Source: Hirudinaria manillensis (Eukaryota > Annelida > Clitellata > Hirudinida > Hirudinidae). From it: a DNA stretch of 64,000 bases. Both the position numbers and the translations under genes were made by a program. Shown piece after piece: positions 17,245 to 53,900 of this stretch. The first letter of the stretch is position 1, and every line of letters starts with the position of its first letter. The notes below the pieces were generated by a model. That model was not told the DNA's origin. It saw only the letters and a program-made list of their open reading frames with translations, and ran no database searches. The stretch covers positions 9,318,501-9,382,500 of the forward strand of contig CM067534.1 of assembly GCA_034509925.1 (NCBI GenBank). Reading direction: 5' to 3'.

Positions 17245-18901
17245 ATGATTAAGACATTTCAATTAGCGACATGCTTATCAAAGTTTGCGATCAGTGCTAC
17301 GGAAGGACTTATATCTAAAAGGTTATGCTTTGTCTAGTTTCGTCAAGAAAGGATTTATCCTCAAATCTAAAATTTCTGTTTTTTTTATAGGTTGTTTTCG
17401 GTAACCAGCGAGTTATGCAGTAAAGTAGATAGTAGATCACGTCCTCCCTTCAAGCTTCCTACTTTTAAGAACAAGAGGTGGATTGAAATAAAGCCCATCC
17501 ATGAACAGTACAAATACACTACAGATCCTTTGCCTATTGCTAGGACTGGTGGCAGAGGACCAAATGGTAAATGGCATTAAATTGTAAACAATGTTCTCTG
17601 CATATGTGTAATACATTAAAAGGCATTCACAAATATCATCAGTAACATTTCCAACAGTAACCTATTATAAGGACTTTATAATTTGTTTATTGTTCCTTTA
17701 TTATTGCTAGCACTGGTTTTTTCAATTGATGAAAAAAGTGCAAAAATTAAATTTCTACCTGGGAACACACCTCTCACAACCAATCAATGATTCACTCTTA
17801 ATACTTTTTTATTTGTTTTTTTTATTAACATCTGATTTTTTGACTTGCCCAACATCCAGGTAGGGTATGGAACCACAAGAGAGGAGGCGGTCTCAAGAAA
17901 GTCTATTTTATGATTGACCATAATAGGGTCAACCCTCTGCTCCTCAAAGAAGGGCAGAACAGCTTAACCGAAAGGGTAACAAAAATTTTTTTTTCATGTC
18001 ACATGTTATCTCCAGCTTATTTAATTGAATCATTCATTAGTCATACTTATGGCAAATTAAATACTCATCTGAATTTTTCTAATTTCTAGATTTATGAAAT
18101 AAAAGAAGACCAAAACAGGTCTGCATTCATAGCATTGGTGGCAAGCGACACACACAAGAGATACATAGTGGCCACAGAGAACATGAAAGTCGGGGACCTG
18201 ATAGTCTCTACGAACGAGATCTCCAAGAATCCAAGTTCGTGCACGATTCAGACTCAATAAATACGCTCAGGAACAAAAGCTTTGCCAAAAATTGACGTCA
18301 TTATTTAATTTCAGTTCGTCCCACCATGGGCAACTCCTATCCCCTCGGCTCTCTTCCCGTCGGCACGATGGTCTGCTGCGTCGAACTGGTACCTGGAAAG
18401 TCCATCTACATGGCCCAGGCGGCCGGGGTTACCGTTCCTCTGGTCAGGAAGTTTCAGGATGAAGATGGCAACGACCTGTGCGTGGTGAAAATGCCGTCTA
18501 AGAGGGAAGTAATCCTCTCCAACAAGTGCCAGGCGACCGTAGGCAGGGTTTCCAACATCGAACACAACAAGTTAGTTGGCTCTCTGGTGTAATGTTAAAA
18601 TAGCAAATCTTATGAAAATTTTTCATAACCAGGTTTCACTTTCTGAGAATTTTTTTTGTTTTTTTTCTCAATGGTCATCATGTCTTTGATTTCCAGGGAA
18701 CATTATGGAAAAGCAGGTGCCAAAAGGCTAGCAGGCATAAGGCCCAGAAGTGGTCTCTGGCATAGGAAGACTGGACACCACGGTAGGAAGATTAGGCCTC
18801 TTCCAGCCCCTGTGAACATGAAGCCCATGAAAGAGAATCCGAAGATAAAGCCTTTCCAAGTTTTAGGCCGTGTGGGACTTGTTCAAAGACGGTCTTACTA
18901 G
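17245..18901 (+). CDS. MRPL2: Mitochondrial large-subunit ribosomal protein uL2m
   Basis: Universal ribosomal protein L2, mitochondrial form, placed near the peptidyl-transferase centre of the mitoribosome. Six exons: 17245-17321, 17391-17566, 17860-17975, 18090-18234, 18315-18570, 18697-18901; 975 nt, 324 aa. The N-terminus ([19 protein letters not shown]) is basic and Ser/Thr-rich with no acidic residue in the first 20, as expected for a mitochondrial presequence. The L2 signatures are [31 protein letters not shown] and the C-terminal [21 protein letters not shown] at 18972-18977 is a candidate poly(A) signal. The stop lies 168 bp from the convergent STAT stop. Confidence 0.95.
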
Positions 18902-19069: not shown

Positions 19070-22000
19070 TCAGTTTATGTCGAGAGTATTTGCCAGTTGA
19101 TTCTCAATGGAAGAGTTCCACTGTACGTCCTGTGACGAGGGACTGTCCAACACCATGTCCATGAGAGAGAAGGAACCTAGAGACGGATTTAAGGCAGACG
19201 CCACGGGCTGGAGCTGATCCTGCAGGGGCGCTTGAGGCATCTCTTGGAAACTTTCACCAGGTTGCGTCTCCATGTTGGTCGGAGCGTTTAGAAGGAACAT
19301 GCTGGCCTCATTCGACTGAGCCTGGAAATGTTTAAAGATAGAACCTAGAAAGTAATGTAATAGGAAAATAAAAATAATAATAAATAATAATGTAAGATTG
19401 ATAACTTTAAAGGTGTGTCTATATTTGACAAATACTCCTATGATACCTTTTTGCCATTAAATGTCATATTGTACCTGAGGAGTGATGGTGGCTATGGGCC
19501 TGCTCAGCTTTTCAACTTCATGAAGGAATGAACCTGGTGACATTGGTGACATGGCATCGAATCCCGACGGGGAAGTTGCGTTTACGCTCGAGGCCTTGTC
19601 TGGCTCTCCGATTTCCATGCTGCTTTGTTGCCCCGAAGAGTCCCTTTATTTTATTAAACGTTAATAAATAAATAATTAAATAAATAAATTAGTTAACTTT
19701 GGCATCGATATTGTTTAGGGTTATTCTAAAAGTTTGAATGTTTAGGATTCATCCTCAAGAGATTATTAGATTATTAGTTTGGTTTTGAATGGAAAGCAAG
19801 TTATAAAATCTGTGAACAAGGACTTTGAAATGTTAATTGAAATGCTCTTAAAATCTCCCATTTTAAGGATTGATTATAAATCATCAATCAAATAACATCA
19901 CGTTCCAAACAACAGCATTTTACAAACAACAGCATTTTTTTAAAAAAGTAATCGAATCAAATTACAACTAACGAAGAGGATAAAATGATCTCTATGACGA
20001 ATTCCGTCTTCTCGTATCCATCTTCGCTTCCTGTCAAAGGAATGAGGAAAGAGGGCAGTGCACAGAGAGGTAGCGACAGCATAAATCAATTCAAATGCCT
20101 TGAAATCCTACCTTTAGGAGTACTCCTTGGACCAAATACTTGCTCGAAAGTCTTGTCCATGTAGGGCCAAAGATGCTGCAGCAGGGGCCTCTTGACCTCG
20201 GGATTCTTTTCGTCTGCAACCCTGAAAGCTTTCAGGATGTTGGCCAATCGGTGCTTCCCAGTTCTCTCGTTCCTCAGGAAGTCCGGCTGGGTCAGGTACT
20301 GTCGGACGTGGAACAGCTTTCTCTTCTCTGAAGGTGGTTGTCGTTTGTTGAGAAAAGACGTTTATGAAACCGTTGCTATGCTTACAGATTATCAGCTTTT
20401 ATGAATTGAAAAGTAAAATTAGGAAATGAAAACACTGAAAATAAAAGAAATAAATAAATGCAATTCACATAACTAATTGTTTATAAATGATTAGCTGATA
20501 AATTAAAAGATGATAAATTAATTCACTAGTAGTGATTAATAACCACTAGTTAGTGACTAGCTGATTGATAGATCAAATAGAGGTTATCCAGGGACATAGA
20601 GGTAGAGAGAAAGAGAGAGTAGGCGATGACGTCGTTATCATATACGATAGAGAAGCGATAAACGATACTGGTGAGCGGATCGTTTTCCAGGACGGCCATC
20701 GTGAGGTGTCCGCACATGTCGGACTTGTTGGAGTTCTCGATGGTCGTCTCGCTGAACCTGAGCAGGAAAGTTCCGCACGGAATGTCGTCAGAGAGCAACT
20801 TTCTCTTCACCTCGTCCTTCGAGATGAAGCCGTAGATCCACCTGGAGAGAGGAGGAGGAGGAGGAGATGAAAGATGATGGCAGTGGTGGTGATGATGACT
20901 ATGATGACCATGCTGATAAAGGATGATGAAGAGAGAATCTCTTCGGAAAGAATTCTCACCCGTTCTGCCACTCGATCTTTATGTAGGTCACCACGAGGTT
21001 CAAACAAGCCACAAACCACTTCCAAAGACTGAAATCCCTCTGTTGCAACTTGTTCTGCAAATGATGTTTTTCCGATGAAATTAAAAACCATTGAACGTGA
21101 AAATTGAACTCTGTTTACTCCGCCCAGGTTTGATTTTTGGAAGAAAATTGCAAACGATAACAACATCACATAGGATGAAAAGAGGTACTACTAATATTAA
21201 TTGAAATTTTTCAACAGACATTACACGCAGGCACGCACGCACGGGCACACACGGGATCACCTTGATGAACTGCTTCTCAGAAATCTCCCTAAGGGCAAAG
21301 TCTGTAGATTTTTCATCTCCTGAACAAAGCAACAACGAATTTAGTTGAGAGGCTGACAAATTAAAACTGTTGCAATTATAAATATAACAACTATTATGAT
21401 TATAGATATGATAACCACCACGATTACAAATATAATCAGGCACTGTAAATTGTCACCCATTAACCCAGAAACACACTCATGTTGCTGGTTTCTACAAATT
21501 CAGGGATGATTTCAGAGAGATCATTTCAGATTTCTTCCTGGGATAGGTTCAAACCCTGATCCTGGTCAATTTTCAGCAAATGGGAAAGAATTCCCCCTTC
21601 CAAAGACACCTCTTGAACTGAGCATTGCCATTCTCAAAGCACAAAACAACAAAACTCTGGACTCACTGAAGAATATTTGGGCCAAGTAGTGGAGGTGTTC
21701 ACTGAGCAGTTGTCTGTCTGTGGCGTGGTAGAACATGTAGTTCAACACGTTGGCCAGCTCAGACCACAACACCGTCTCCCGATAGGCAAACGGAACTCTG
21801 ATCTGCCGACAGATGGCAACAGAATTTTCGTCGTTTATTTATAATCACAAAAACAAAATCAATAAAAAGTGATTAAAAAAAATTTAACTCAATAAAATTC
21901 TAAAATATGGATATCTAGATTCTCCGTTTTCGTTTTTCAAATGTCTCAAAAGCCAAAACATGTCACAACCAACTGGCTTTGCGTTCGATCGATCCATGTC

Positions 22001-30101: not shown

Positions 30102-33100
30102 ATGACTTTACCATTTCTACCTGGGAACTCTTTCGACAGAAATGTTTGTATTTTTAAACTTTCAAATGAAATTATTGACTATTAATAGATTCTCTAGCCT
30201 GATAGGCATTCGATTTTTTGTGTTATATTTTGTCAAACTACTTTATATTTTTAAAAGATGTTTTTAAATTAATTAAAATAAATTAAATAAATTAAGATCT
30301 AAGTTTTGTGGAATTAAACGGTCCAATCTTTAAAATTAGTTTCTCGAATCCCCATGCGAACAAAACAATAATGTTAACATTCTTAGATCTATGGACTATT
30401 TAGAAAATTCTTGACTGACCAACTTTCTTTTCCAAGGTCGGTAGAACTGCTTTCCAAAAATCTCAGAAATTTTTCTACAGCAACAACATTCAAACGAATG
30501 TCTTCAACAACAAAGAAAGAGCAATTGATCTCAGCGCTCTTCAGCCGAGCCACCACTTTTCCAATAAGCCGGCAGTTCCTTCTTGGGTCGTTTATGACAA
30601 ACAAGTTCTCAGTTTTGATGGATTTTCTTGCGAATCTGTAACTGAAAGGCCTGACGAGAGCCAAAGGGTTCACCGGTGCAAAATCTACTACTTTTTGGAA
30701 GACGGAACCATGAAAATAACTGAACCTAAAGAAGATAATTCTGGCATGGAGCAAGGTATTCATTTTTAAACGCCGATACTTTCGATCGTGCTGAACAGAC
30801 TAAAGATGAAAATAATAAATAAATTGCTCTCCTAATGAAGACTAAATTTGGGAATTATTTATTTACCAATTTAGATAACATTTACACATTTACAAAATAA
30901 ATATTTCATAATATTATGTATTTACCATAGAAATAAGCTTCCAATTTAAATATATTACTTTTATTTATTTAATTTCAGGCGTATTGGTCAAGAGACACCA
31001 CGTGAACAAACCATCTCCAAATGGAGATGACATTTACACTGTCGACGATTTGAACATTGGAAGTCGTTTGTTTATTTACGGAATTTCATACACACTGACA
31101 GATTGCGATGAATTCACGAAGAGGTTTTTGAGGAAAATCGGAGTAAAATTGGGTGAACCGATGATGATAGCGACGAGGGAAAAGGTAGTCGTAACCGAAC
31201 CTTTGCTATCATTTGCTATTAAAGACAAATTTGTATGTCGACGATGTATTGCATCAACTAATTTAGTGATAGATTTATCTCACGAGGAATAGAATTTCAA
31301 GAATTATAAACAAAATAATTTAAAATCGCACAGAAAAATGTCAGAGAACAAAAAACCACAGAATTCAAAAACAAGGAATCGAAATTCTGGAAGTATGACG
31401 GTCAGATATTGAAGTTCTTTTGTCTTTGGGAAGATGAGAGCAATCAAGAAAGAAGAAAGATGGTCCTTAAGTACTACTTGACAGACGATACCATTGAGAT
31501 CAGTGAGGTTGGTGCGGGATATTTCAAAACTGAAATGCATATTTATCTTTGGATGGTCATTTTTTTTAACAAACTTAAACTTCGATCTGAAAATCACAAC
31601 AAAATTTAAAAAAAAAAGGTACACAAGCCAAATTCCGGCAGAGAAGGTATAACCTTCTTGAATCGATGTAAACTGCCAAAGCAGAGGAAATGCCTGGATG
31701 TGCCTGGAAATTCAGCTTCAAATCATCTGCTGTTGAACGTCTTTGAGAACAAAAACAAGACCCACAGGTGTATGATGGACAGTGCTCAGGTTAACGAGAA
31801 TGAATTGTTTGTTTTTTTTTTATAAATTTCCTCTTATTTTCAATTTAACAACTTTAATAACTTTATTCGTTAAAATGTAAACAAATGAATGTTCGAACGT
31901 GTATGTGTATTTCCTATTCCAAGTGATTTAAAACATGTTTAAACATCATCTTTTATGATAAATTCTCTATAAGTTCATAATTAATATTTAGTAAAATGTT
32001 AAATATTACGTACAAATCAGCAATTTTTTTTTAAATTCTGATTTTCCAATTTATGAATTGCTCTCACAAACAGGTGGGCGACTCGCTCGACTCTTACCTG
32101 GATTGTGACTTGAGACTGGGGTCTCTGATCGACGTCTTTGGCAGGAAGTTCTTGCTCTGCGATTGCGACAATTTCACCAAGGAATTTTACAGGAACAAAT
32201 ACGGAATCAGTGAGAAAATTAATTATTATTTTAAACGATAAGGATTCAATGGCTCGATAGCCACCTCATAGGAGCAGGTCAAGGGGTTAGGTTAAAGTTA
32301 AGGTTAGGGTTAGGGTTATCTACTAAAGATCCCCGGCCGTGAGTTGGCCTTCTTGCATGTCATTTCTCTAACATTTAGCACGAGTTGACAGTATATAATA
32401 AGGATGACTAGCAAGTCCGACATAATTTTCAGCAAACTTTATTCCAATCGAATTGGAATCCAACGCCGAATCACATCGACCGACCGTGCCACTCCCACCG
32501 CCTTACAACGGATTCGGTAGCCACGAGGACAGCCTCAACTCTTCAGTACAACTCATACCTCGGCCGCCCAGGAAGGATTTCATCAAATTCTTGACCAACG
32601 ACAGACAGGGTCTCGACGGCAACGTACTCAGATATTCTGCTCAGCTGGTGACAGAAGATGACATCGATGCTGCTAGGAGGTTCATCATGTCCTTCTATCT
32701 TGTCGACGACACTTTGCAAATATACGAAGTCGTTGCAAAGAACTCGGGTGAGATTTTAACAGTCGAATAGTTTCAAGTCGGTTGATTTGATTTGTTTGAA
32801 CGTTTGTTTGTCTTAGCGTTTCCTTCAAAACTCTGTTTTGGGTTGTTGGATTATATGGTGTTGATAGTAAATCGGTCGAGAAAAAGCGCTACATAAATTA
32901 CAACCTAAATAATCCTAGGCCTCACAGGAGGGAGGTATCTCGAGCGATGCAAAGTTCCAAAACCAGGGCAGGAGAAACGCTTGAGAAGTCTGCCGGAATA
33001 TTATCAGAAATATGACTTGGCCATTGGAAAGCTGTTGGAAGTGAACGGACGCCATTTTATCGTAACTGGAGCAGACGAGTACACAATGAACTTTATGGAG

Positions 33101-35183: not shown

Positions 35184-38100
35184 ATGATGCTCTTATGGTG
35201 TTGGGTTGGGGGAATACGTTTTGTTGATAAACAAAAGGGATCGGCCGTTTTATTTAGTCTTTTACTGCGGATGGAGATAGATATTCATTCTTGGGATTCA
35301 CTGTTTACGACACCTGTCGCCAATTCGAGGATATTTATTTTCAACGCTTTCAAATCGAACGATTATTCTATGTAATAATATTAATAATCTTATAGGCACG
35401 TGTCACTTCATTTAACTATCCAGTATCCTTTTCTCAATTGCAGCTTCATCACACGTTGTAACGGATTTGATTACATTGACCGATCCGGTCAGCTTGGAAT
35501 GCGATATCCATCGCAAGACTAACAAACTAACGGACAGGATCATTGACCCTCACGAATTCGCAGTTTATGAAGTACCTTGTGTCAGGCAGTCCAAGCCCAT
35601 CCTCATATTGATTGAAGAATCAAACAGACTCGCGGCTATTACCATCCATGCCGGTTACACTGAGGAATCAAGTGGGATGTTTTCTCATAATGTTTTCTAA
35701 ATTATTTCTAAACCTAACTAAATTTTCTTTATTCAAAATAAAAACAAAAGAGAAAAGGAGGCTAAATTTTGGTTAACCAAAGACTCAAAGGCTTCTTACT
35801 GCGTTCACTTTTAGTGATAAATTTGCGTCGTAAATAAATGCGGCGTCTGGTCGCCATTAAAAGTGATCATTTGTTATAATCGTTGCGAACAAATTCTTTT
35901 CCGATTAATATTTATCGATCAATTAAAACTAAATTTAAAAAATAATCCTAATCTTTTAATAATAAATGATTAATCTCAACAAACTAATCTAAGTTTGCGA
36001 TGTCGGTCGGGCTCAAATTCAGCAAGGCTCGTATAACAGACTGTCATTAACATTACGACGGGATGTCCTACGATATGATGTAATAAGTTCAGGATTAATA
36101 AGTACAGCAATTATACTATGACATGGACCTTAATGAACACTTTGAATGCGTTGTGTTTCAGCGTCCATTCTCGACTTCTTTCACGTGAAGTTATTCAGGC
36201 AAGACAGGAGCCAAGAGGTGTGCGGGTGGTGGCCAAAGACCTTTCAAGGACCCAACAATTCGATGAGAGTCAACTGTAAGCTTTTGAACGAACCCTTCCG
36301 TTCTGTGGCCATCCTCCCGACCGCCAGGACCGTCCAAAAGATGGCGGCCAACGTCAGACTGATGCAAAAGATTCCAATCTCTGAGGTCGAAGTCGTCACG
36401 AAAGGTCATCCTCATTTATTCGTTTGATTTTTAAATTTAAATCTTGAAATATGCATTTATTTGTGCACGTATATGTTTCCGATCCTGTTCATTGTTATTA
36501 TTAATGATTATATTGTTATTAAAGCCTATTCTTAGGTCAATTTTCCTTATCATCCTCGGCTGTTCAGTAACACTAACAATAAGAAAATCGTTAAGGAAAT
36601 GTTTGTCAATGCAGAATATTCTACGGCTGTGGGTTTCTACGGTTGTTTCGAGTCCTTTGAGGGTGAAGCGTCCAAGTACAGTGGTCAGTGTAGGGACGTC
36701 TGTTATGACGAGTCGCATATTTTTGCCAGCTTCAGGACAGATTCGGTCAGGCTCGTGATGATGATGAAGATGACGATGATGATGATGATGAAGATGACGA
36801 TGATTAACTAATTATTATAACACGATGCTAATATTACACGGAACGATATACGTACGTACGACTAAAGCGTTTTATTATTTTTTAAAGAATCAGCATTTAC
36901 AATGATAAAATTATTATTATTTTTTTCCTTTATATTTCGTAATATTATTAATAATAGAGGCCATTTTAATATTTTAATTAAATGTGCAACTCAACTCAAC
37001 TCGTATCAGTGTCTTTGCGGATCGAAAGTACCAACGAACGTTCTGTCGACTGAAAATTGCTTCCCTGAGTGTAAGTCACAACCTGGTTACTTGTGTGGCG
37101 GCCCCACTGCACATGCCGTATACATTGGTAGGTGCTTTTTTTATTTTTTTCTGCCTTTCAGTTATTTTCAGTTTTTGCAATTATTTTATGTGATGTTGTT
37201 CATTCGTTTCTTTCCTCAAAGTTAGCCATGATTTTATAGCTACAGTGAAACTTTAGGATTGTCTTGTGTTTTTTTTCGACCACAGCGAAAGCTCCTCACA
37301 TATTCAGTCTCGGCTGTTTCGAGTACAGGCCACCCGATGATGCCACGCCCGAAGAAAATTTGACCCCTGTGACATGCATCAAGAAATGTTCCAAAGAGGG
37401 AAAGGCATTCGCCTTTGTGTCGGTGAGTTATCAGAATGTCAATCGTCTACGAGGGTATAATATTATTATAATACTATTAATGGTATTATAATATTATTAT
37501 AATGGTAATCGTGATGGCTGTTGGTGCTATTGCTGTCGGCACTGCCTTTATTGCTTCCGATGCTAGAATCTATTGTTTGTAAAACACAGGAAGGAGTATA
37601 CTGCATCTGCGAAGAAGACGAGCCATCAGGGGAGACCGAACCCGAAGATTGCGATTTCAACTGCAGTGGTGATCCTCTCATGAACTGCGGAGGAGAAAAG
37701 AGTACTTTGGTCTACTCCGGTGAGATTGATAAGGGGAATGATCAGAAAACAATAAATAACTATTGTTATTTATTAAATAATAAATTTATTTCAAATTGTT
37801 TTTAATATTGCGTGATTCAAGTTTTTTTTTTCGGAGTTTTCGTATTTTTTTTGTAAAATATCGTTTAGTAATTTATTAATAACAATCGATACCGTTCAGT
37901 GACCTTCTTAAAGATAAGTTTTCCTCGAAAAGTTAAGGTGACCCTAACCCTAACCTTAACCCTTACCCTAACCCTAACCCCGACCCTGAAGTCGCTGGTC
38001 TGACATTGAAATGTATTCCTTTATGTGCTTTCTCAGGCTGCCTCAGTGAAAGGAAAATTTCATGTCTGGATGTTTACAAATGCGAAGACGAGAACATCGA

Positions 38101-39070
38101 TGTGTTCGGTCAATGCTTGAGTTCGTGCATGGAGGGTTGGTTGTTACCCTACTGTCTCAGCAGAGGTCTGCATAACGTGTCTTTAATCTTTTATTTTTTT
38201 TTCCAACTTCCTAAAAAAAAATTCCTTAATATATTATCAAATATATATAATTTATAATTGAATTTTAAATAATTGGTCGGTAACAAACAAACAAATAAAA
38301 AACTGTAATATAAAGCAAAAAAAAAAATCACAACAACAACAACAAACTCTCAAACTACTCAGAGCTCCCAGTTTTCACGACCACGGGTTTGACGACTACA
38401 ACCGAATCTACGACCACAGAACCGATTGCGACAACAACCACCAAAAAACCTCTGCCCGTCGTTACCGAAGCCCCGACCACGGAGAGAAAACGGACCACCG
38501 TAGAAACGACTCCACCACCAGAAAAGGTCGAACCACAAGATGAAGGAGGTGGAGGCCTCGTGTTCGTCGTTTTGTTGCTGGGCGTCGTCGCAGCTGCTGG
38601 AGCTTCAATGTAATCATTCCTGAATGAGTTCTCGAAATCGTTTTTATTCTTCGTTTTAACATTTCTAAATATTATCGACGTTGTGATTATTCTACCTAAC
38701 CCTAACCTTAACCCTAACCATAACCCTAACTCTAACCTTAACCCTAACCCTAACCCTAACCCTGACCCTAACCATGACCCTAACCCTAACCCTAACCTTA
38801 ACTCTAACCCTGACAGTCTAACTGTTGTTCTTACGAATGTGGGCGTTTAATTTCAACCTAATTTAAGTTAACGTTTCCTCTTTCTTGGGTTAAATTATTT
38901 CAATTATTTCAATTATTTCAATTATTCTTGAATGTATGTCACAATGAATTTTGTCTTTTTGTCGCAGTTGGTACGTTAAGGTCAAGAAAGCAGGACAATC
39001 ACCAATCGCCCCGCCCGAGGGGTCTTCAGAGCCGGCCCCAGAACCCCAGGCCGCAGAAGCAAACGAGTAG
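35184..39070 (+). CDS. WSC-domain single-pass membrane protein with N-terminal lectin-like domain
   Basis: Putative cell-surface protein. Exons: 35444-35671, 36162-36404, 36615-36745, 37010-37127, 37286-37422, 37590-37719, 38037-38165, 38363-38609, 38968-39070; first exon proposed at 35184-35217 (about 499 aa in all). The first two large exons look like a galactose-binding/F5-8C-type domain (ends IPISEVEVV, as fucolectins end LCEVEVY). Two WSC domains follow: VGFYGCFES, QCRDVCYDE, CLCGSKVP; then FSLGCFEYRP, CIKKCSKEG, YCICEEDEP. A further Cys-rich piece leads to a Thr-rich mucin-like stalk (TTTTESTTTEP), a membrane segment (GLVFVVLLLGVVAAAGAS) and a short Pro/Glu tail. Matching intron positions inside both WSC domains support the exon at 37010. 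The signal-peptide exon (MMLLWCWVGGI) rests on a weak donor, GTTTTG, and is uncertain. Confidence 0.7.
37940..37988 (-). repeat. Interstitial telomere-like tract in a WSC-gene intron
   Basis: Degenerate CCCTAA repeats on the plus strand, about eight imperfect units, 50 bp before the exon starting at 38037. Confidence 0.85.
38694..38815 (-). repeat. Interstitial telomere-like tract, about 20 units, last WSC-gene intron
   Basis: Around 120 bp of CCCTAA and close variants (CCTTAA, CATAAC, CTCTAA, CCTGAC). Purest in the middle. Lies in the intron between 38609 and 38968. Confidence 0.9.
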
Positions 39071-40166: not shown

Positions 40167-43100
40167 ATGGATGCCTTTGAGTTCAGCATGTCGGATGGAA
40201 AAGGTGGAGACAGAGGAGACGGAGTTGTCATCCAGGTCCCGATGACTTACCTCAGTCCTGCCGTCAGCAAAACAGATTTTGGTAGGGCAGGCTACGAACC
40301 AATGGCGGGCTACAGGAAAAATTCTTGCTTAGACGTTTCAAGGAGAAATTCCTCGACTTCATTCAGTCAGAATCAGGTGAAGATCAAGTATAAAGATTTC
40401 CTTCCGGAGTTTTGCAGAAGTTCTAAGGACATCAGAAACGATAACTGGATGAGAACGAGAGATTTCAAGTGAGTTTATTATTAATAATCGTTGTTGTTAT
40501 TGTTGTTGTTATTCGTGATCTTTGATATTTAAACATCAATTGCCTTAATATTGTATCTCTATAGTTTGTATTCCTAACTCTTATTGTTTTCTCATTTTCA
40601 CGTCTTCAATTCATCAGATAATTTCACATAATTTCCAGGAGACGTTTTGAATGTCCCGAGAGATATTTTTCACGAATATCTAATAATTTATGTCACTTAT
40701 ATCACGTGAATAGTGGAAAAATCTTCTCTAGGTATTTTAACACCCTTTTAACAGCTTTTAACACCTTTTAACAGATTAATTAATTATCTGGAATCGTTAA
40801 CAGCTACGAAGTGTGCTCTCCACAAATGAACTCTCACAAAGCGATTGTTTATGCAGAGCCAAATGCGAGCCCGAGTCGTCAAAGTCTTTTGTTTTCTTTC
40901 AAAACATTGGCATCAAACGCAGGGGAAATGAGGAAGCTTTTTCGTTTCTGTCCTTTGCAGTCCACGCTTTCCAACTGTATTTCTGATTGATTGCGATGAC
41001 TATAAAGGCGACGACGACGACGATGATGATGAAGTGGAGATAGATCTCAGATATATCTGAGTCCCTTCTTGTTTCTCATAAGCAATCGAGTATCATTTCG
41101 TTGATGATAGTCGTTGTTAGTACTGAATGTATCAATAGGCTGATTGTTATTTAACAAAATATTTATTTACAATTTATATTTATTACAAATATTTCATAAC
41201 CACTACGAATACTAAGACAGTGAACTAAACTTCATTCGTAGGAAGCTCTTGGAATCGGCAAACAAGTGGTTGTCGGAAAATCCCGGAGTTGAACTCAAGA
41301 GTTGCGAGTCAATCATTTGGTCGTCGGATGACGTCAGAGACCTTGCAAGCCCCAGTGACCTCATGGTGACCTCGGTTTGTCTCGAGGAGGATATGCCGAC
41401 GTTTTACATTCTCGGATTCAGGTTGAATCAACGCGTGATTGAGAAGTGTCTGAAAGTGACAACGTGTGACTGAAATGCAAGAAATTGGATGACTGCGATG
41501 TTTTACCATTGCGTTGGGGCTCTTGTACTTAAGGTCACACTTTTTAACCTTGCGTTAGGGTTAGGGTTGGTGTACTTTAGGTCAATTAATGTCTTTACCC
41601 TTGTCTCCATCGTTATCTCTAGCTCTAATTCTAAACTGGCCCAACACCGTTCCGTAGTTGGAAAGTAATCCAGAAATGACTTTATTTTGACTTGGCTTTT
41701 GTCTTTATTAGTTAGTATTAATAATAAAAATACAATTATTAATAATAACAATAATTACATTATTTTCATCAAAAATCGATTTTTCATTCCACTAGACTAT
41801 GGTACGTGGTCTCAGCCTACGCCAGGGTTTGCACCATCAGTCTCCTCGAATTCATCCCCCTAGCGACCGATTCCACCGTACAGGACCTGGTTCGACAAAT
41901 CGATTCCGATATCCGATCGGGTTCGGTTTTTTGTTTCCAGAAATTCTGTGTCTATCTGTACGTTTTGAGCAATTAGGCATATTCAGATTCGAGGAAAACG
42001 GCTTTTATTCCACTATTTATGCAGAATTAGTTGAAAATTAAAAACTAAATTGATTTAACTGTATCAAATAATATTTTATCATATTTAATAAACTATTCAT
42101 CATTTATTTCGTTAAATGAAAGTAAAATCATAGAGGAAATTCTGAACTTGGAAACCGTTTCATTGCCTCTTCTCTCTGGCTACTTGGACAGCAACCTCAC
42201 TTCTTGGAGGGTGACCATGGACTACACCAGTACCTACGCCTACTTCCTCAGATTGTACCTTCTCAAGGACAAGGTCGTCAGCGATAAGATCAGTCCGGTC
42301 ATCAGCCACCTTTGTGAGTTTCTGCAGTTTCAGAATTCGGTATGCAAAAGAGAGGTCGCCATCCAGTTAGGCAAAAATATAAATTAAAATTTTCTGTCCA
42401 AAGCTATAGAGGACTTTGTGCCACGGTTGAATGATGACGGACAGTACGAAGGTTTCTCCGAACTCCTCCAGAGATGCAACCAGTGGAGCAGCACGAATGA
42501 CGTTACCATCGTCAACATCCAATCCATATTCGCCAAGGAGGATCCAGGTAAGTGTAACGCTTGAACACATCCTGGAAAATCCCAAGCAGATTAAACTAGA
42601 AACTAAAGTAGGAGCCCAATCTTGTACGCATTGATGGCACCAGCAATAATGATAACAACAAGAATGATGACGATAGAAATAATAATAATAATATCCTCTG
42701 CATTTTTTAAAATAACTTGCAGTTCAACACGAGGACACCGGTAAATCGTGCTTCTTCGAGAAGCCTGGACTCAACCATCCAGATTCGGTCGACTATTTCC
42801 GCATCCTAAGGGTGGTCTACATGTCCAGCATCTCCTGGCAAGTCGTGGACAGCTTGCAAAACAACAATTTGTTTCGGAAGAAGAAATCAGAATCACCGCC
42901 GATCTGTTACGAGATGTTCACGCCTGAACTCCTTAATGCACCACTGGCCGGGGAATCGGGGGTAATGGCAAAACGGCTCTCGCTTACCAGAGGGCCTGCA
43001 GTAGAAGGCATGAGCACGACTTTTGCCAAGATGGCCGATTTCATTTCCGAAGGAGGTTAATTTTTTGGCAAAGAAAAATTTTTTCCCAATTTTCCAAGTT

Positions 43101-43854
43101 CTTAGCTGTTGACTTCAACATAGATAGAAGGGTATTATTAATCAGTTTTTAAGCTTTTCTTTGAACCACATACATGGGTGGCAAAGTTGATTTCTGGGTT
43201 CAAATCGATGATCTCTTATCAATCCAGACTTGGACATCGTGAATGCAGAGATGGTGAGCAATCCGGTGCAGTTTAGATGCCAAGAGAGCAAGAACAATCT
43301 CAAGTTTCTATTTTCGATCAGGTTACAGTTTGTCACGGGTATTAACAAATGTAACAAATGTGCAGTGCTTCATGGATCGAGAGTGATTCCCTCGACAATG
43401 TGTACACTGTACAGCTTGTGATAGTCTAATTTAATACCAGTATTAGAAACTGTCAAATAACTTCAGTGATAACAATAATAGTAGAAGAATAAACAAATGC
43501 TGAAAGATTCAAATTGCATCACATCTCATAACTAACACACTTCTTTTCATTAATTTTCACTATAACTTGCCAATTGACATGTGAATTTCACCATGGCATT
43601 GCAGTAATCTATATTATGTCTGCAGACTATTTTATCGCCCTCGGAACTATCGTCGCGAAAGCAAGATGTTTGCCAGTCCAAAGAAGACCCAAATCAGTTC
43701 GGGCCAAATTAAACCGGGTCCCATATTCCTGAAGAACGTCGTCAGTCGAAAGTTTCCGTATCGCTGGCTCGTGCTCTCCTTGACGGCCTTTGCTAGCATG
43801 ACGATCATCGTGGCCATCAGCATCATTTACAATTTCAAGTTGAACTCGACTTGA
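40167..43854 (+). CDS. Unrecognised four-module protein with C-terminal membrane anchor
   Basis: I do not recognise this gene. Eight exons: 40167-40468, 41242-41421, 41796-41920, 42134-42313, 42404-42547, 42723-43055, 43228-43321, 43626-43854; 1587 nt, 528 aa, all phases consistent. After a 70-residue polar N-terminus come four similar modules of about 75-140 residues. Each opens with an aromatic-acidic-Phe-x-Pro motif (YKDFLPEF; LLEFIPLA; IEDFVPRL; YEMFTPEL), then a helix, then a short strand with SI or NAE-like ends (LKSCESIIW; LNLETVSL; VNIQSIFA; VNAEMVSN), and closes with a hydrophobic strand (FYILGFRLWYV; AYFLRLYLL; YFRILRVVYM; KFLFSIRLFYR). The last exon adds a membrane segment (WLVLSLTAFASMTIIVAISII) near residues 497-520 and eight more residues. 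No signal peptide is visible, so a tail-anchored or type II-like topology is likely. Function unknown. Confidence 0.75.
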
Positions 43855-45116: not shown

Positions 45117-46849
45117 TCAGAGGCGATGCACTGATATTCCACAGCGACTCAAAGTCTTCAGTATCGGACTGTCGGTCTTGCAGTCCAGGAGTTTACTTGA
45201 TGTTGTGTTTGCATTGAGAAACAGCAGTGCCTTTGAGATCTGGTTTAAAATAAAGTTCAAACCAGATTGTGCCAAAAACATGTCTTACATTTAAGAAAAC
45301 TTTAATTGCGTAATGTGTATGTTATTATTATTGTTATTATTATTGTTATTATTATTATTATTACTGTCATTGTTATGCAGGTTATTTTTCAGGAAGTGTT
45401 TTTTGGCCAGCGAGTTCTTTTCGAATATAATTACTAGTGGTATTAGTATTTTATTCATTGAAATTAATAATATTAGTATTAATATTGGTAATGTTGTTAT
45501 TGAAGTAAAGATTTGCTGCAAGCGATTACCGTGAACTGTTGATCTGCTGAAACACAAGGAGGACATTTGGAACGCAGGAAGACTGAGACTTTGTAGATCT
45601 CTGGCATCTGAAACGGTATTCAAAGTAACTTTCTTTAAAGATAATATTTCAAATCATTAGTTTAAAGATTTGCTGAAGAATTGCAATTAAATTAAATTAA
45701 ATTAAATTGGCATTTTCCCCACCTTGATGTTCACATACGCAGCCTCGATCCTGTTCAACTCCAGGCTCCTCCTACGCGGTCCAGACTTTGACAATTGACG
45801 TACGGCAGAAGACACGGAGTCGACTACGACTCTCGCGTCGGTCTGGACTTGCGACCACGCGGTTGTCTTGTTGCCACAAGAAGATGATGTGAGGCTGTAA
45901 TTCTGCTCCAAGGATTTGAATATTCTGAAGTCGCATGTCATGGTCTGTTGAGAAAAAAAATGTATGTTGTTGTTAATGTTATTATTATAATATTATTATC
46001 ATATTATTATAATATTATTATTATTGTAATATTATTATTATTGTAATATTATTATTATAATATTATTATTATTATTGTAATATTATTATTATTATTGTAA
46101 TATTATTATTATTATTATTGTAATATTATCGTTGCTACTACTTGTAACCAGGAATATGAGGTATGAGCAGGTCTTAAGAAAGTCGTGACTGGCTAAAATA
46201 TGTTCAAAGAAAAAAATGTGCGCAAGTAGTAGGCATTTGGGGCATGAATGTGCAATCCATACTGATATAAATGATACTATTAATAAATATTAATACCACA
46301 TTATATCAATATTAATTACCCATTCCAAAAAGCAGGCCCTGTGAAAGTTTTCCTTGGTGGGGCAACTGGATAAACCAATACTGAGTGTCAATTTGTAATT
46401 CATCCCAGCCACCACCTAATTTTAAATCACAATACTCAAATTAATTTTAAATTTCTTTATATCAGTTTTTTTTTAATTACATAGCATATAACGCAACTGA
46501 TTGCTCCATTAAGTCGAAAAACTACATTCATTGAAATTCAAAAAACAATTTTAGCAATAATTTAGGGTAATTGAAAGGTTAATCAACATATAATAACAGT
46601 TATTCTCTCATTACAATCATGCACCACTTTAGTAATAAAACTTATTCGTACTTGTTGCGAAGCATTCAGTATTTCCAAGAGCAATAATTTGTTGGCATCT
46701 TGTCCTCGGTATAAATTTAAAGCATTTTTAGCAGCGTCTATAACATCTTTCGATGTTACGTTTGCGTTATTCCATCCTCCCGGCAACTGACCATAACCAC
46801 CTTGAATCGAAATCAAAACAGCAAGTAAACCGATAACTTTCGAAGCCAT
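45117..46849 (-). CDS. Secreted two-domain cystatin-like protein
   Basis: Predicted secreted inhibitor of papain-like cysteine proteases. Five exons (minus): 46652-46849, 46320-46415, 45723-45944, 45530-45607, 45117-45239; 717 nt, 238 aa. Signal peptide MASKVIGLLAVLISIQGGYG. Domain 1 has the N-terminal glycine region (LPGGW), a helix (VIDAAKNALNLY) and QVVAG across the exon 1/2 junction (residues 66-70), the canonical QxVxG loop. Disulfide cysteines follow (SSCPTKENFHRAC; MTCDFRIF; SSSCGNK). Domain 2 repeats the layout (VVVDSVSSAVRQLS; IYKVSVFLRSKCPPC; LDCKTDSPILKTLSRC) but has IKMPE in place of QxVxG, so it is probably not inhibitory. The PW loop is absent from both. The last exon is too short to stand out by itself but fits in phase and supplies the expected cysteines. 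Confidence 0.75.
45961..46130. repeat. ATT/TAA trinucleotide repeat in a cystatin intron
   Basis: About 170 bp of (ATT)n blocks separated by TATAAT or TGTAAT pieces, inside the intron between 45945 and 46319. Confidence 0.85.
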
Positions 46850-47471
46850 ATTAGATCGAATAAGCTACTGAATCAGCATAAACTTTCAACGATTAACGTT
46901 CCGAATGCAATCTTACTCAGTTAGGCCTCTTTTAATCGGTTGTGACAGGAATATTTGCATAACCAAGGCTTGAATGAATTCCACAGCAATGAATGACTTC
47001 AAATGCCATTGTCTGAGAATGAACAAAAAGAAGCGCGTCAGCCCCCATACGTCACCAGCAGCAGTAAACACAATCAGTGTGAGTCTTCAAAGAAGTCTTT
47101 GACGCCACCACATCCTCAGAATAATATTAAATAAATAGATCCGGTTATTCGCATTTAATAACGTGAATATTCTTAATTTAAGATGGTTTACTTAAATTTT
47201 GCACATTCACTTCAAGTTGGCTGTCACTCATTAATCACTCAAAATGAGGGAGTGATAAACAGCTAAAATCATTTAGTGAAAATTAAATCATCAATATAAG
47301 TAAAATAAAGTGAGTTTAAATGGCTGAAACTATCTCTAAAAAATCGGATGAAAAAATAAATTGACACGTTTGCTAACGAATCTGAAATTTCTTCAGACCC
47401 ATGTAAACAGATGTTGGCGCACAATCGGGGTTTTTTGAAACTTTCGCCTTTTGACTCAAGATTTGATTGGG
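46850..47471. promoter_or_regulatory. Divergent promoter interval, cystatin / PrimPol
   Basis: 622 bp between diverging start codons. No coding signal beyond short frames; an ATG at 47320 is followed by only 14 codons. It should contain both promoters. Confidence 0.35.
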
Positions 47472-50924: not shown

Positions 50925-53900
50925 TTAAGCGACTTCCGATTTCTGTAACTCGTAGCCCAAAGCCTTGGCTTTCAGTTTGCTGTAAATCTTAGTGTTTTCT
51001 TCGTCGGGGAAGATGTATTCGTAGTGTTCTTCCCAGCTCACTGCGGAGCCGTCCGTTTTGTTGACCCTGCTCGAGACCACCCTACGAGGCAGCAGTTTCT
51101 GGACGACTGCCAAAGAACTGTCGTCTCCGTACTCGCTCTCGAATTCCATCCACTTCTCGAGGAGTGTGGCCCTTTCCTCGTCCCTCGTTTTCTTGAGCAA
51201 CTCCCAATCCTCGTGGTTCTGCATGGCCACTCGTTCCTCGTTCTTTCTCTCTTTCATGAACTTATTGGCCGTCTTGTAGATTTCCCTGGACTTCTCGATG
51301 CAGTCGTCATCTCCCGTGGAGAGTTCGAATAGGGCATAGCTCAACCACACCTTGATGTGCGGAGTCTTCTCGAGCAGCCTCTTGTAAATGTCTCTGACTT
51401 TGTCGAATTCGTCCAGGTTCGTCTCGAAGTCGATGTAGGCTTTCCACATGACTTCGGGCATGTCGAGCTGCTGGGCGATGGCCAGCTCGTAGATGGCACG
51501 GGCCCTGTCTACGTCCGTGAGGTTCGTCTCCATTTCGGCGAATTCCGTCCACGTCCTGCAGTTCTCCGGGGAGAACTCGAGAAACTTGTGGTACAGAGTC
51601 CGACACCTTCCGAATTCTTTCAGTTGGAATTCTAGATTTATGTATTCCCTGAAAAGCTTGTCTTTCGGACACTTGCCTATCGCCGAACCCAGAATCTTGC
51701 GGGCCACGTCGAGTCTTTTCTCTCTGATTTCGAGCTTTGCAAACATCAACCAAACCTTAGCAAAAGTGAAAACTTTGTGAGGGATGTTATCGAGACAAGC
51801 CTTGTAGACTTGTCTAGCCCTATCAATGTCCTTCATCTCAAGCTCTTCATAAAGGGCATAATATATCCACAGGTAGATGTATCTCCTCCAGTACCTTTTT
51901 TCCTATTATACATAATAATACATAATTTACATTATAGATACTTTTCAACTATTGCTTGTTTCAAAATGCATTTAAATTTAAAAATATGACTTTAAATTTA
52001 TATTGTAAGTATTAGTCGCACTACTTACAATTTTAAGAGGTACATTTGCAATGGCTCTCTCATAGAGCTCCCTGACCACTTCTGGATTTCCATCATCTTC
52101 CATTAGGCGGATGTAATTGAACCAGGCATCATAATTATAAGGATTAGATTTCAATTCCTGAAAAAACACAACTGAAATATTCATTTTTTAAAATGGAAAT
52201 TCCATTAATTATACAATTATTTTCTTTACTAAATAACTATTATTAGCACGACCACATGGGTAATAGTTATATGCCGACCTCTTCGTAATGATTCTTCCTT
52301 TTCTCGATAAGGGCTCCCTCTATGGCACTCTGGTCTCCGTACTTTTTCTCATGTATTGTGTAGAGCCTATACAGTTCTTTGCACTTTTCCTTGTCAAAGT
52401 GATTGATGGCCCACTTATAAATGGTCCTAACCCTTTCATGCTGTGTTGGAAAATTTACAATTAAAATTAAATCTCTCTTCGAATTCGCACAATTCAAACA
52501 ATTGTGCAGACATTATCAAATGTAGGCATTGCTCATATTGCTTACCTCTTTCTGGTTCTCTTCAAATTTGGCAAAGGCAATTACAAATTGCTCGCTAAGG
52601 TGCTCAGTACCGAAGTACTCGTTGGCCCTTTCAAAGATCGTCCGAGCACTGGCTATGTAACCGTGCCTCTCTTCAAATTTGGCATATTTGATCCAGTTCT
52701 GAACCTAAATGGAAAGCTTACTTCAGACAATTGCTTCCAAATATTCCATATTTGTAATAGAATTCATAAAGGAATGATTTAATACAAAATGATAAGTACA
52801 TGCAAATTCATTCATAATAATAATTAATGTTTAGTTAATTTTGTTAACTTGCCTCAGGATGCACAATGACAAATCTCTCATAGATTATTCTTGCATTATC
52901 CAGCTCTTTGCATCTGAGTTCAAAGTTGATGTATGCATGCCACGCTTGCTCATTTGGCCTCCACTCCATCCATCTTTCAAAAACCTGTCTGCATCCTACC
53001 GACCAATTACAGTTATTACATTACCCATTCAATGTTACACTAAAACAAGAATAACTAAAATGCCTAGAACCAGGTGATGGCTTACCTGACATGTTCTGTA
53101 AAGTCTCCTCCATATAGGCATACTTTCTCCAGAACTGATCAACTCTGGGAAGAATGGCAACAGCTCTGTCCAGTATGTTCCTTGCAGAGTTTACTTGTTT
53201 GTTTCTGATGAATTAGAATTAATTTAGTAATGGTTTCTATACATAGTTATGAAACCCAATTTTGGGAGACCTGTAAAAGCAACTTACCTCATCTCCATGT
53301 CTGCATACTTTAGCCATATCACAGGAGCTCTGTGTTCAACATCTAAGGCTCTCTCATAAACTGATCTCGCACTAAAAAATGATGGTGGACATTATTTTGT
53401 TGTTGTTTATAGTTAACAGATGCATATTTTAAGTATCTTATGGATTACATAACATTAAAATGGAAGTTGCTAATAGACAAATTTATCCTTAATAGTTTTG
53501 ATAAAACATTTACTTACTTTCTAAGAGCCTTTTGTGTCTCCTCCCAAGCAGCATACTTTAGCCAGTTGGACAATGTGAATCTATTCTTTCTGATGTTGTC
53601 CTCAAAAGCCTAACACAAAACAAAATGTCTTAAATAATCTCATTGTTTAATGAATTTATAATGCAAAACCCTGAGAATGTTAAGAAATAATGATAAACCA
53701 CAATCAATGAGTCACTGCAGTAATGTAAATTAGATTTTGAATTCTTAATTCTAATGTTAGTTGCAGCTTGTTTTTACCTTTCTCTTCCTCATCTGATAAT
53801 CCCTCAGCTCAGCAGCATCTGAAATCTTCTGCCTAGGAGGTGCTTGGACAAGTTCCAATTCCCTTTCCTTGGCTTCCCTCAATAACTGCTCAGCAGTGAT

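Follow-up and report, generated by a model that had tools for sequence, protein, structure and literature searches.

A leech gene for a predicted tail-anchored protein of four homologous modules, in a family whose lipid anchor was probably exchanged for a transmembrane tail

In a 64,000-nucleotide stretch of the genome of the leech Hirudinaria manillensis (hereafter the window; GenBank assembly GCA_034509925.1, contig CM067534.1, forward-strand positions 9,318,501 to 9,382,500), we analysed a gene at window positions 40167-43854 on the + strand. We consider it fairly probable that its product is a tail-anchored, cytosol-facing scaffold of four modules, and that it belongs to a leech family in which a lipid anchor has been exchanged for a transmembrane tail. 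Here we show the structure of the gene, the homology of its four modules, the family and the clade within it, the two kinds of C-terminus and the last-exon acceptor that they share.

Gene structure and protein layout

Rebuilding the gene from its eight exons gave a single reading frame of 528 residues with one stop, and all seven introns are bounded by GT and AG. The exons are as follows.

40167-40468, + strand: exon 1, with the start ATG; ends in phase 2 within Lys101
41242-41421, + strand: exon 2, module 1 from helix to last strand; ends in phase 2 within Arg161
41796-41920, + strand: exon 3, with the weak donor CGG/GTTCGG; ends in phase 1
42134-42313, + strand: exon 4, ends in phase 1 within Ser263
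42404-42547, + strand: exon 5, ends in phase 1
42723-43055, + strand: exon 6, from the end of module 3 across the linker to the module 4 FTP and helix; ends in phase 1 within Asp422
43228-43321, + strand: exon 7, ends in phase 2 within Arg453, the module 4 equivalent of Arg161
43626-43854, + strand: exon 8, from the last strand through the linker to the membrane tail; anchored and CaaX paralogues differ in the type of this exon

The exon 3 donor at 41920 is the weakest splice site of the gene. A better-looking donor 37 bases further on, at 41957, was rejected, the reading frame being broken there; donor 41920 was preferred because it yields a phase-1 junction before the ETV strand, and the paralogue models have one at the same place. 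When codon usage was modelled from three other long reading frames in the window, the frame of the gene model was the best of six in all eight exons and scored positive in seven; exon 8, with its stop codon counted, scored -0.024 in frame and -0.08 to -0.46 in the other frames. GC content is 44-54% in the exons against 26-37% in the introns. Spliced alignment of the 528-residue protein to the window returned the same eight exons, which is only a self-test, since that protein itself served as query. Some 230-265 bases 3' of the stop there are five AATAAA/ATTAAA sites, which count as weak evidence because the DNA is AT-rich. The gene looks real, and the eight exons of consistent phase and 528 residues proposed in an earlier sequence-only reading were reproduced exactly.

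The encoded protein is laid out as follows.

40167-40376, + strand: N-terminal stretch, residues 1-70, preceding the modules and devoid of a hydrophobic segment
40377-41811, + strand, exons 1-3: module 1, residues 71-166; DFLP, helix, SCESI strand, GFRLWY strand
41830-42270, + strand, exons 3-4: module 2, residues 173-248; EFIP, helix, LETV strand, FLRLYL strand
42307-42826, + strand, exons 4-6: module 3, residues 261-345; DFVP, helix, NIQSI strand, ILRVVY strand
42896-43641, + strand, exons 6-8: module 4, residues 369-458; MFTP, helix, NAEMV strand, SIRLFY strand
43765-43830, + strand: transmembrane tail, residues about 500-521; hydropathy 2.36 over 19 residues

The tail, which bears out the C-terminal membrane anchor of the sequence-only reading, is preceded by the basic aromatic stretch RKFPYRW and followed by the seven residues NFKLNST, the C-terminus being LNST. 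By hydropathy only, it is the single hydrophobic segment of the protein, with none near the N-terminus (19-residue stretches that start within residues 1-40 reach at most 0.69). The protein has nine cysteines, and an N-glycan sequon at Asn223 lies inside module 2. The helix and strands of module 1 were assigned from the predicted fold of a paralogue fragment: the module 1 exon, running from helix to last strand, was predicted from an 11-row alignment headed by the C5 paralogue to form a helix, three strands and a short helical turn (mean pLDDT 81, pTM 0.53). The paralogue module 3 exon was predicted as a helix only (mean pLDDT 85). Together with the sequence pattern, these exon-sized predicted folds suggest the module order strand-helix-strand-strand-strand.

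The window also holds the following features.

18296-18589, + strand: exon of a ribosomal L2-type protein
20553-20978, - strand: exon of an SH2 protein, STAT-like by eye
30419-30766, + strand: exon of a DM10-domain protein, EFHC-like by eye
36866-39070, + strand: adjacent gene whose cysteine motifs are WSC-like (Pfam WSC at 22 bits, E 1.9e-4, below the 27.8 cut-off); by eye, it has a hydrophobic stretch towards its end
38695-38815: degenerate telomere-like (CCTAACC)n run between exons of the same-strand upstream gene; the window lies at 9.3 Mb of C9, far from the contig start
39415-39758: minisatellite (AATAATAATAGGGTTAAAG; unit length about 19-22 bp), upstream of the window gene
46586-46864, - strand: first exon of a probable secreted protein, cystatin-like by eye, with no Pfam match at E<=0.001
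50928-51902, - strand: exon of a HAT-repeat splicing factor, CRNKL1-like

Homology of the four modules and searches against known families

Each module of the window protein combines an F-x-P motif with a last-strand Arg in fixed order (DFLP, EFIP, DFVP and MFTP; GFRLW, FLRLY, ILRVV and SIRLF). When the modules were compared as single sequences, the pairs of modules 1 and 3 (1 of 2000 shuffles as good) and 3 and 4 (6 of 2000) stood out, and the others did not (modules 1 and 2, 1831; 1 and 4, 452; 2 and 3, 115; 2 and 4, 162 of 2000). Leave-one-out profiles of the four modules were likewise weak, with 42 to 610 of 2000 shuffles as good. Comparison by hhalign of profiles built over the family, from alignments of 12, 12, 12 and 8 rows for modules 1 to 4, scored 85 for modules 1 and 3, 55 for modules 2 and 3, and 42, 41, 40 and 38 for the other four pairs. 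The best score among column-shuffled controls was at most 18, and none of 60 was as good for any of the six pairs. At the level of family profiles, homology of all four modules is thus decisively supported in all six pairs, in line with the four related modules and old duplication claimed from the sequence alone. Furthermore, a phase-2 intron cuts the last-strand Arg codon in both module 1 (codon 161) and module 4 (codon 453), and a phase-1 intron lies between helix and second strand in modules 2 (codon 203) and 4 (codon 422), at sites equivalent within one residue. Given these matching sites, the module was probably duplicated together with its introns.

A module alignment over the family comprised 32 rows from nine of the 12 members, of which 26 were used, six with lost or noisy parts being omitted and one shortened. 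The proline of F-x-P is present in 26 of 26 rows and the last-strand Arg in 25, the remaining row being cut short; in module 1, a Leu, an Asn, a Trp, a Cys and an Arg are invariant among 11 paralogues. An invariant Pro, a near-invariant Arg and these five residues are what might be expected if the module were an enzyme or a ligand-binding unit, some copies active and others degenerate, with the anchor only positioning it. We regard this as unlikely, since no enzyme family was matched and the conserved residues could equally be structural; a membrane-bound scaffold is the reading we retain.

Searches against Pfam gave no match at cut-off for the window protein, its four modules, seven paralogue proteins or 26 modules, and NCBIfam gave none for the window protein. 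The flavivirus M protein (PF01004) was considered and rejected: it scored 11.7 bits with the whole protein and 14.9-15 bits with module 1 alone, and was taken as chance because it falls below the Pfam cut-off of 25 bits and is absent among the matches of any paralogue. Among PDB sequences no credible match was found by single protein or by profile, the six weak phmmer matches of the window protein (E 0.024 to 0.5) all being flavivirus M; a PDB fold search with predicted module fragments gave no significant match. The strand-helix-strands layout might be dodecin-like; dodecin is absent both from the three chance PDB matches of the module profile and from the fold list of the fragment lacking the first strand. 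There are presumably uncharacterised four-module proteins without assigned function in other invertebrates, with the motif order of paralogues C7:0.25M and C1:13.75M. The claim that the protein matches no known family was upheld for Pfam, NCBIfam and the PDB, and it is in this sense that the family is new.

The leech family and its two kinds of C-terminus

Searches of the same genome (23 contigs, 148,429,096 bases), begun with the window protein and continued with relatives, revealed about 19 family loci, several of them partial, a count that excludes weaker matches and includes C1:10.86M and C16 from matches without gene models.

C9 (window), C12:8.76M, C4:1.19M, C5:5.46M, C1:0.06M, C13:0.45M: anchored loci, found in the window-protein search
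C8:0.02M, C2:0.39M: weak matches with the window protein; C2 then used as query
C10:7.15M, C7:0.25M: weak matches with relatives; C7:0.25M then used as query
C1:13.75M, C1:1.64M: found with relatives as queries
C7:3.53M: weak first match; then used as query
C4:12.19M: matched by three relative searches, strongly in the last
C1:0.44M, C13:0.60M, C1:11.01M, C1:10.86M, C16:0.11M: found in the last relative search

Weak first matches were kept as family loci because multi-exon models with recognisable modules were obtained there. The matches at C16:113493-114898 and C1:10863214-10864620 have near-equal scores and are perhaps one gene present twice in the assembly, on an unplaced scaffold and on a chromosome. 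At C1:1.64M (L040), the paralogue has modules 1-2 and its second half runs into an N stretch; the paralogue C1:13.75M apparently has a very long Gln/His-rich open frame before module 1 (L042 1452-2771, C1:13.73M). The sequence-only reading had described a single undescribed protein. The module is indeed undescribed; the protein itself does not stand alone, being one of these paralogous loci, in six of which the anchor was found.

Twelve models were aligned (the window gene, L029-L037, C1:13.75M and C7:3.53M). The five anchored paralogues are 27-34% identical to the window protein, the other six 18-25%, and the exon borders and phases of the window gene recur in the paralogue models, some of which lack a border or have an additional one. 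In a 12-row tree built on modules 1-3 and rooted at the midpoint only, the six anchored genes make up one side of a branch with support 99/97, and the C2 locus adjoins this clade. The window gene has the second-longest end branch in the clade (1.11; C13, 1.36), and most paralogues have a module 2 that is longer by about four residues. Along with the weak exon 3 donor, these features could be read as marks of a decaying duplicate, which still reads through and is no longer used. Such decay is very improbable, however, given 528 codons free of stops and frameshifts, the in-frame coding scores and the retained transmembrane tail.

A search with the tail as query found six genome sites at E<=1e-9, each of which belongs to an anchored gene. 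In the anchored paralogues the tail reads approximately RQFKYRWLVLAISAFTCMAIIVxVSVVYSN, its basic aromatic stretch being RQFKYRW in three of five and RQYKYRW and RSYKYRW in one each; one to six residues separate the final Asn of the tail from the stop in the anchored genes, window gene included. Among the eight non-anchored loci whose last exon was seen, six have a C-terminal CaaX box, a count that leans to CaaX because two of the six (C1:0.45M and C13:0.61M) came from a search that used the C7:3.53M CaaX exon as query; at C13:0.61M the match ended before the CaaX letters.

C1:13.75M, C7:3.53M and C1:0.44M (about 0.45M): CSLM end
C13:0.60M (about 0.61M): CCIL end
C4:12.19M (about 12.18M): CNVM end
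C1:11.01M: CTVI end

The other two of the eight have neither CaaX box nor tail (C8, ...FHRLV; C10, ...ALVAGI), and a further splice is possible there; the loci C2, C7:0.25M, C1:1.64M, C1:10.86M and C16, whose ends were not identified, are outside this count. Module 4 strands and CaaX box lie in one frame in C1:13.75M only. For the other five CaaX genes the last exon was assigned by its proximity, lying about 0.7 to 3.3 kb past the module 4 helix exon on the same strand, the exon between the two not being identified. In these five and in C8, the last-exon acceptor would give a phase-2 intron in the last-strand Arg codon, like that of window exon 8. One intron thus separates body from anchor, and replacing the last exon would suffice to alter the anchor.

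The prenyl transferases that modify CaaX boxes are cytosolic enzymes, and we infer that the CaaX paralogues are prenylated, as predicted from their ends. Since the modules are common to CaaX and anchored forms, this would support placing the modules of the anchored proteins in the cytosol as well, a position which the sequence-only reading had surmised from the anchor and which the CaaX ends now back. Alternatively, the protein might follow the secretory route, with extracellular or lumenal modules and the C-terminal helix as a stop-transfer anchor in type I topology; the same-strand WSC-like neighbour gene offers such a layout nearby, and the nine cysteines would fit. This topology is nevertheless quite unlikely, as the first part of the protein lacks a hydrophobic segment and kin with the same modules carry an end modified in the cytosol.

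Proposed model and comparison with known systems

The analysis enables us to propose a putative model for the tail-anchored, cytosol-facing form. Four homologous alpha/beta modules, each a strand ending in F-x-P, a helix and three strands, the last with the conserved Arg, would lie in the cytosol, held to a membrane by one transmembrane helix at the extreme C-terminus. The tail would probably be inserted post-translationally. We guess that the modules bind a partner and that the protein serves as a scaffold or adaptor at the membrane, the type of anchor setting the location and tightness of membrane attachment. Several relatives would be attached by a prenyl group on the CaaX box at their C-terminus; within the six-gene clade, a transmembrane tail encoded in the last exon would have taken the place of the lipid anchor. 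The direction from lipid anchor to transmembrane tail is itself an inference; the anchored state could be ancestral, given that only midpoint rooting was applied to the tree. The wider proposal, of an animal scaffold family in which one terminal exon switched prenyl group to tail and the anchored form then multiplied to six leech genes, is offered tentatively, as somewhat less probable than its opposite.

About 19 loci in one animal genome, with a Pfam domain in none of eight tested proteins, make up a natural comparison in which the same modules carry either a lipid tag or a transmembrane helix, so that the role of the anchor in protein location becomes testable. They also raise the question of whether annelids swap CaaX ends for other anchors beyond lamins. 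As described in a study of annelid lamins (PMC10125929), these proteins, leech ones included, have lost the CaaX box for alternative C-termini, for which the authors propose membrane association, and in terebellid lamins both ends are made by alternative splicing.

The window protein resembles tail-anchored membrane proteins in its single hydrophobic segment seven residues from the C-terminus, its basic N-terminal flank and its lack of an N-terminal signal; it differs from known ones in that the rest of it consists of four copies of a module without Pfam, NCBIfam or PDB match at cut-off. To CaaX-prenylated proteins it is linked by the paralogues that share its modules and, in six of the eight with a seen end, carry C-a-a-X, whereas the window protein itself has LNST at its end, and a transmembrane helix in place of the box. 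As in the annelid lamins (PMC10125929), a C-terminal lipid box appears to have been exchanged for another end. The proteins are unrelated, however, and the lamin ends are short peptides, whereas here the exchange yields a full predicted transmembrane helix in a separate clade of genes.
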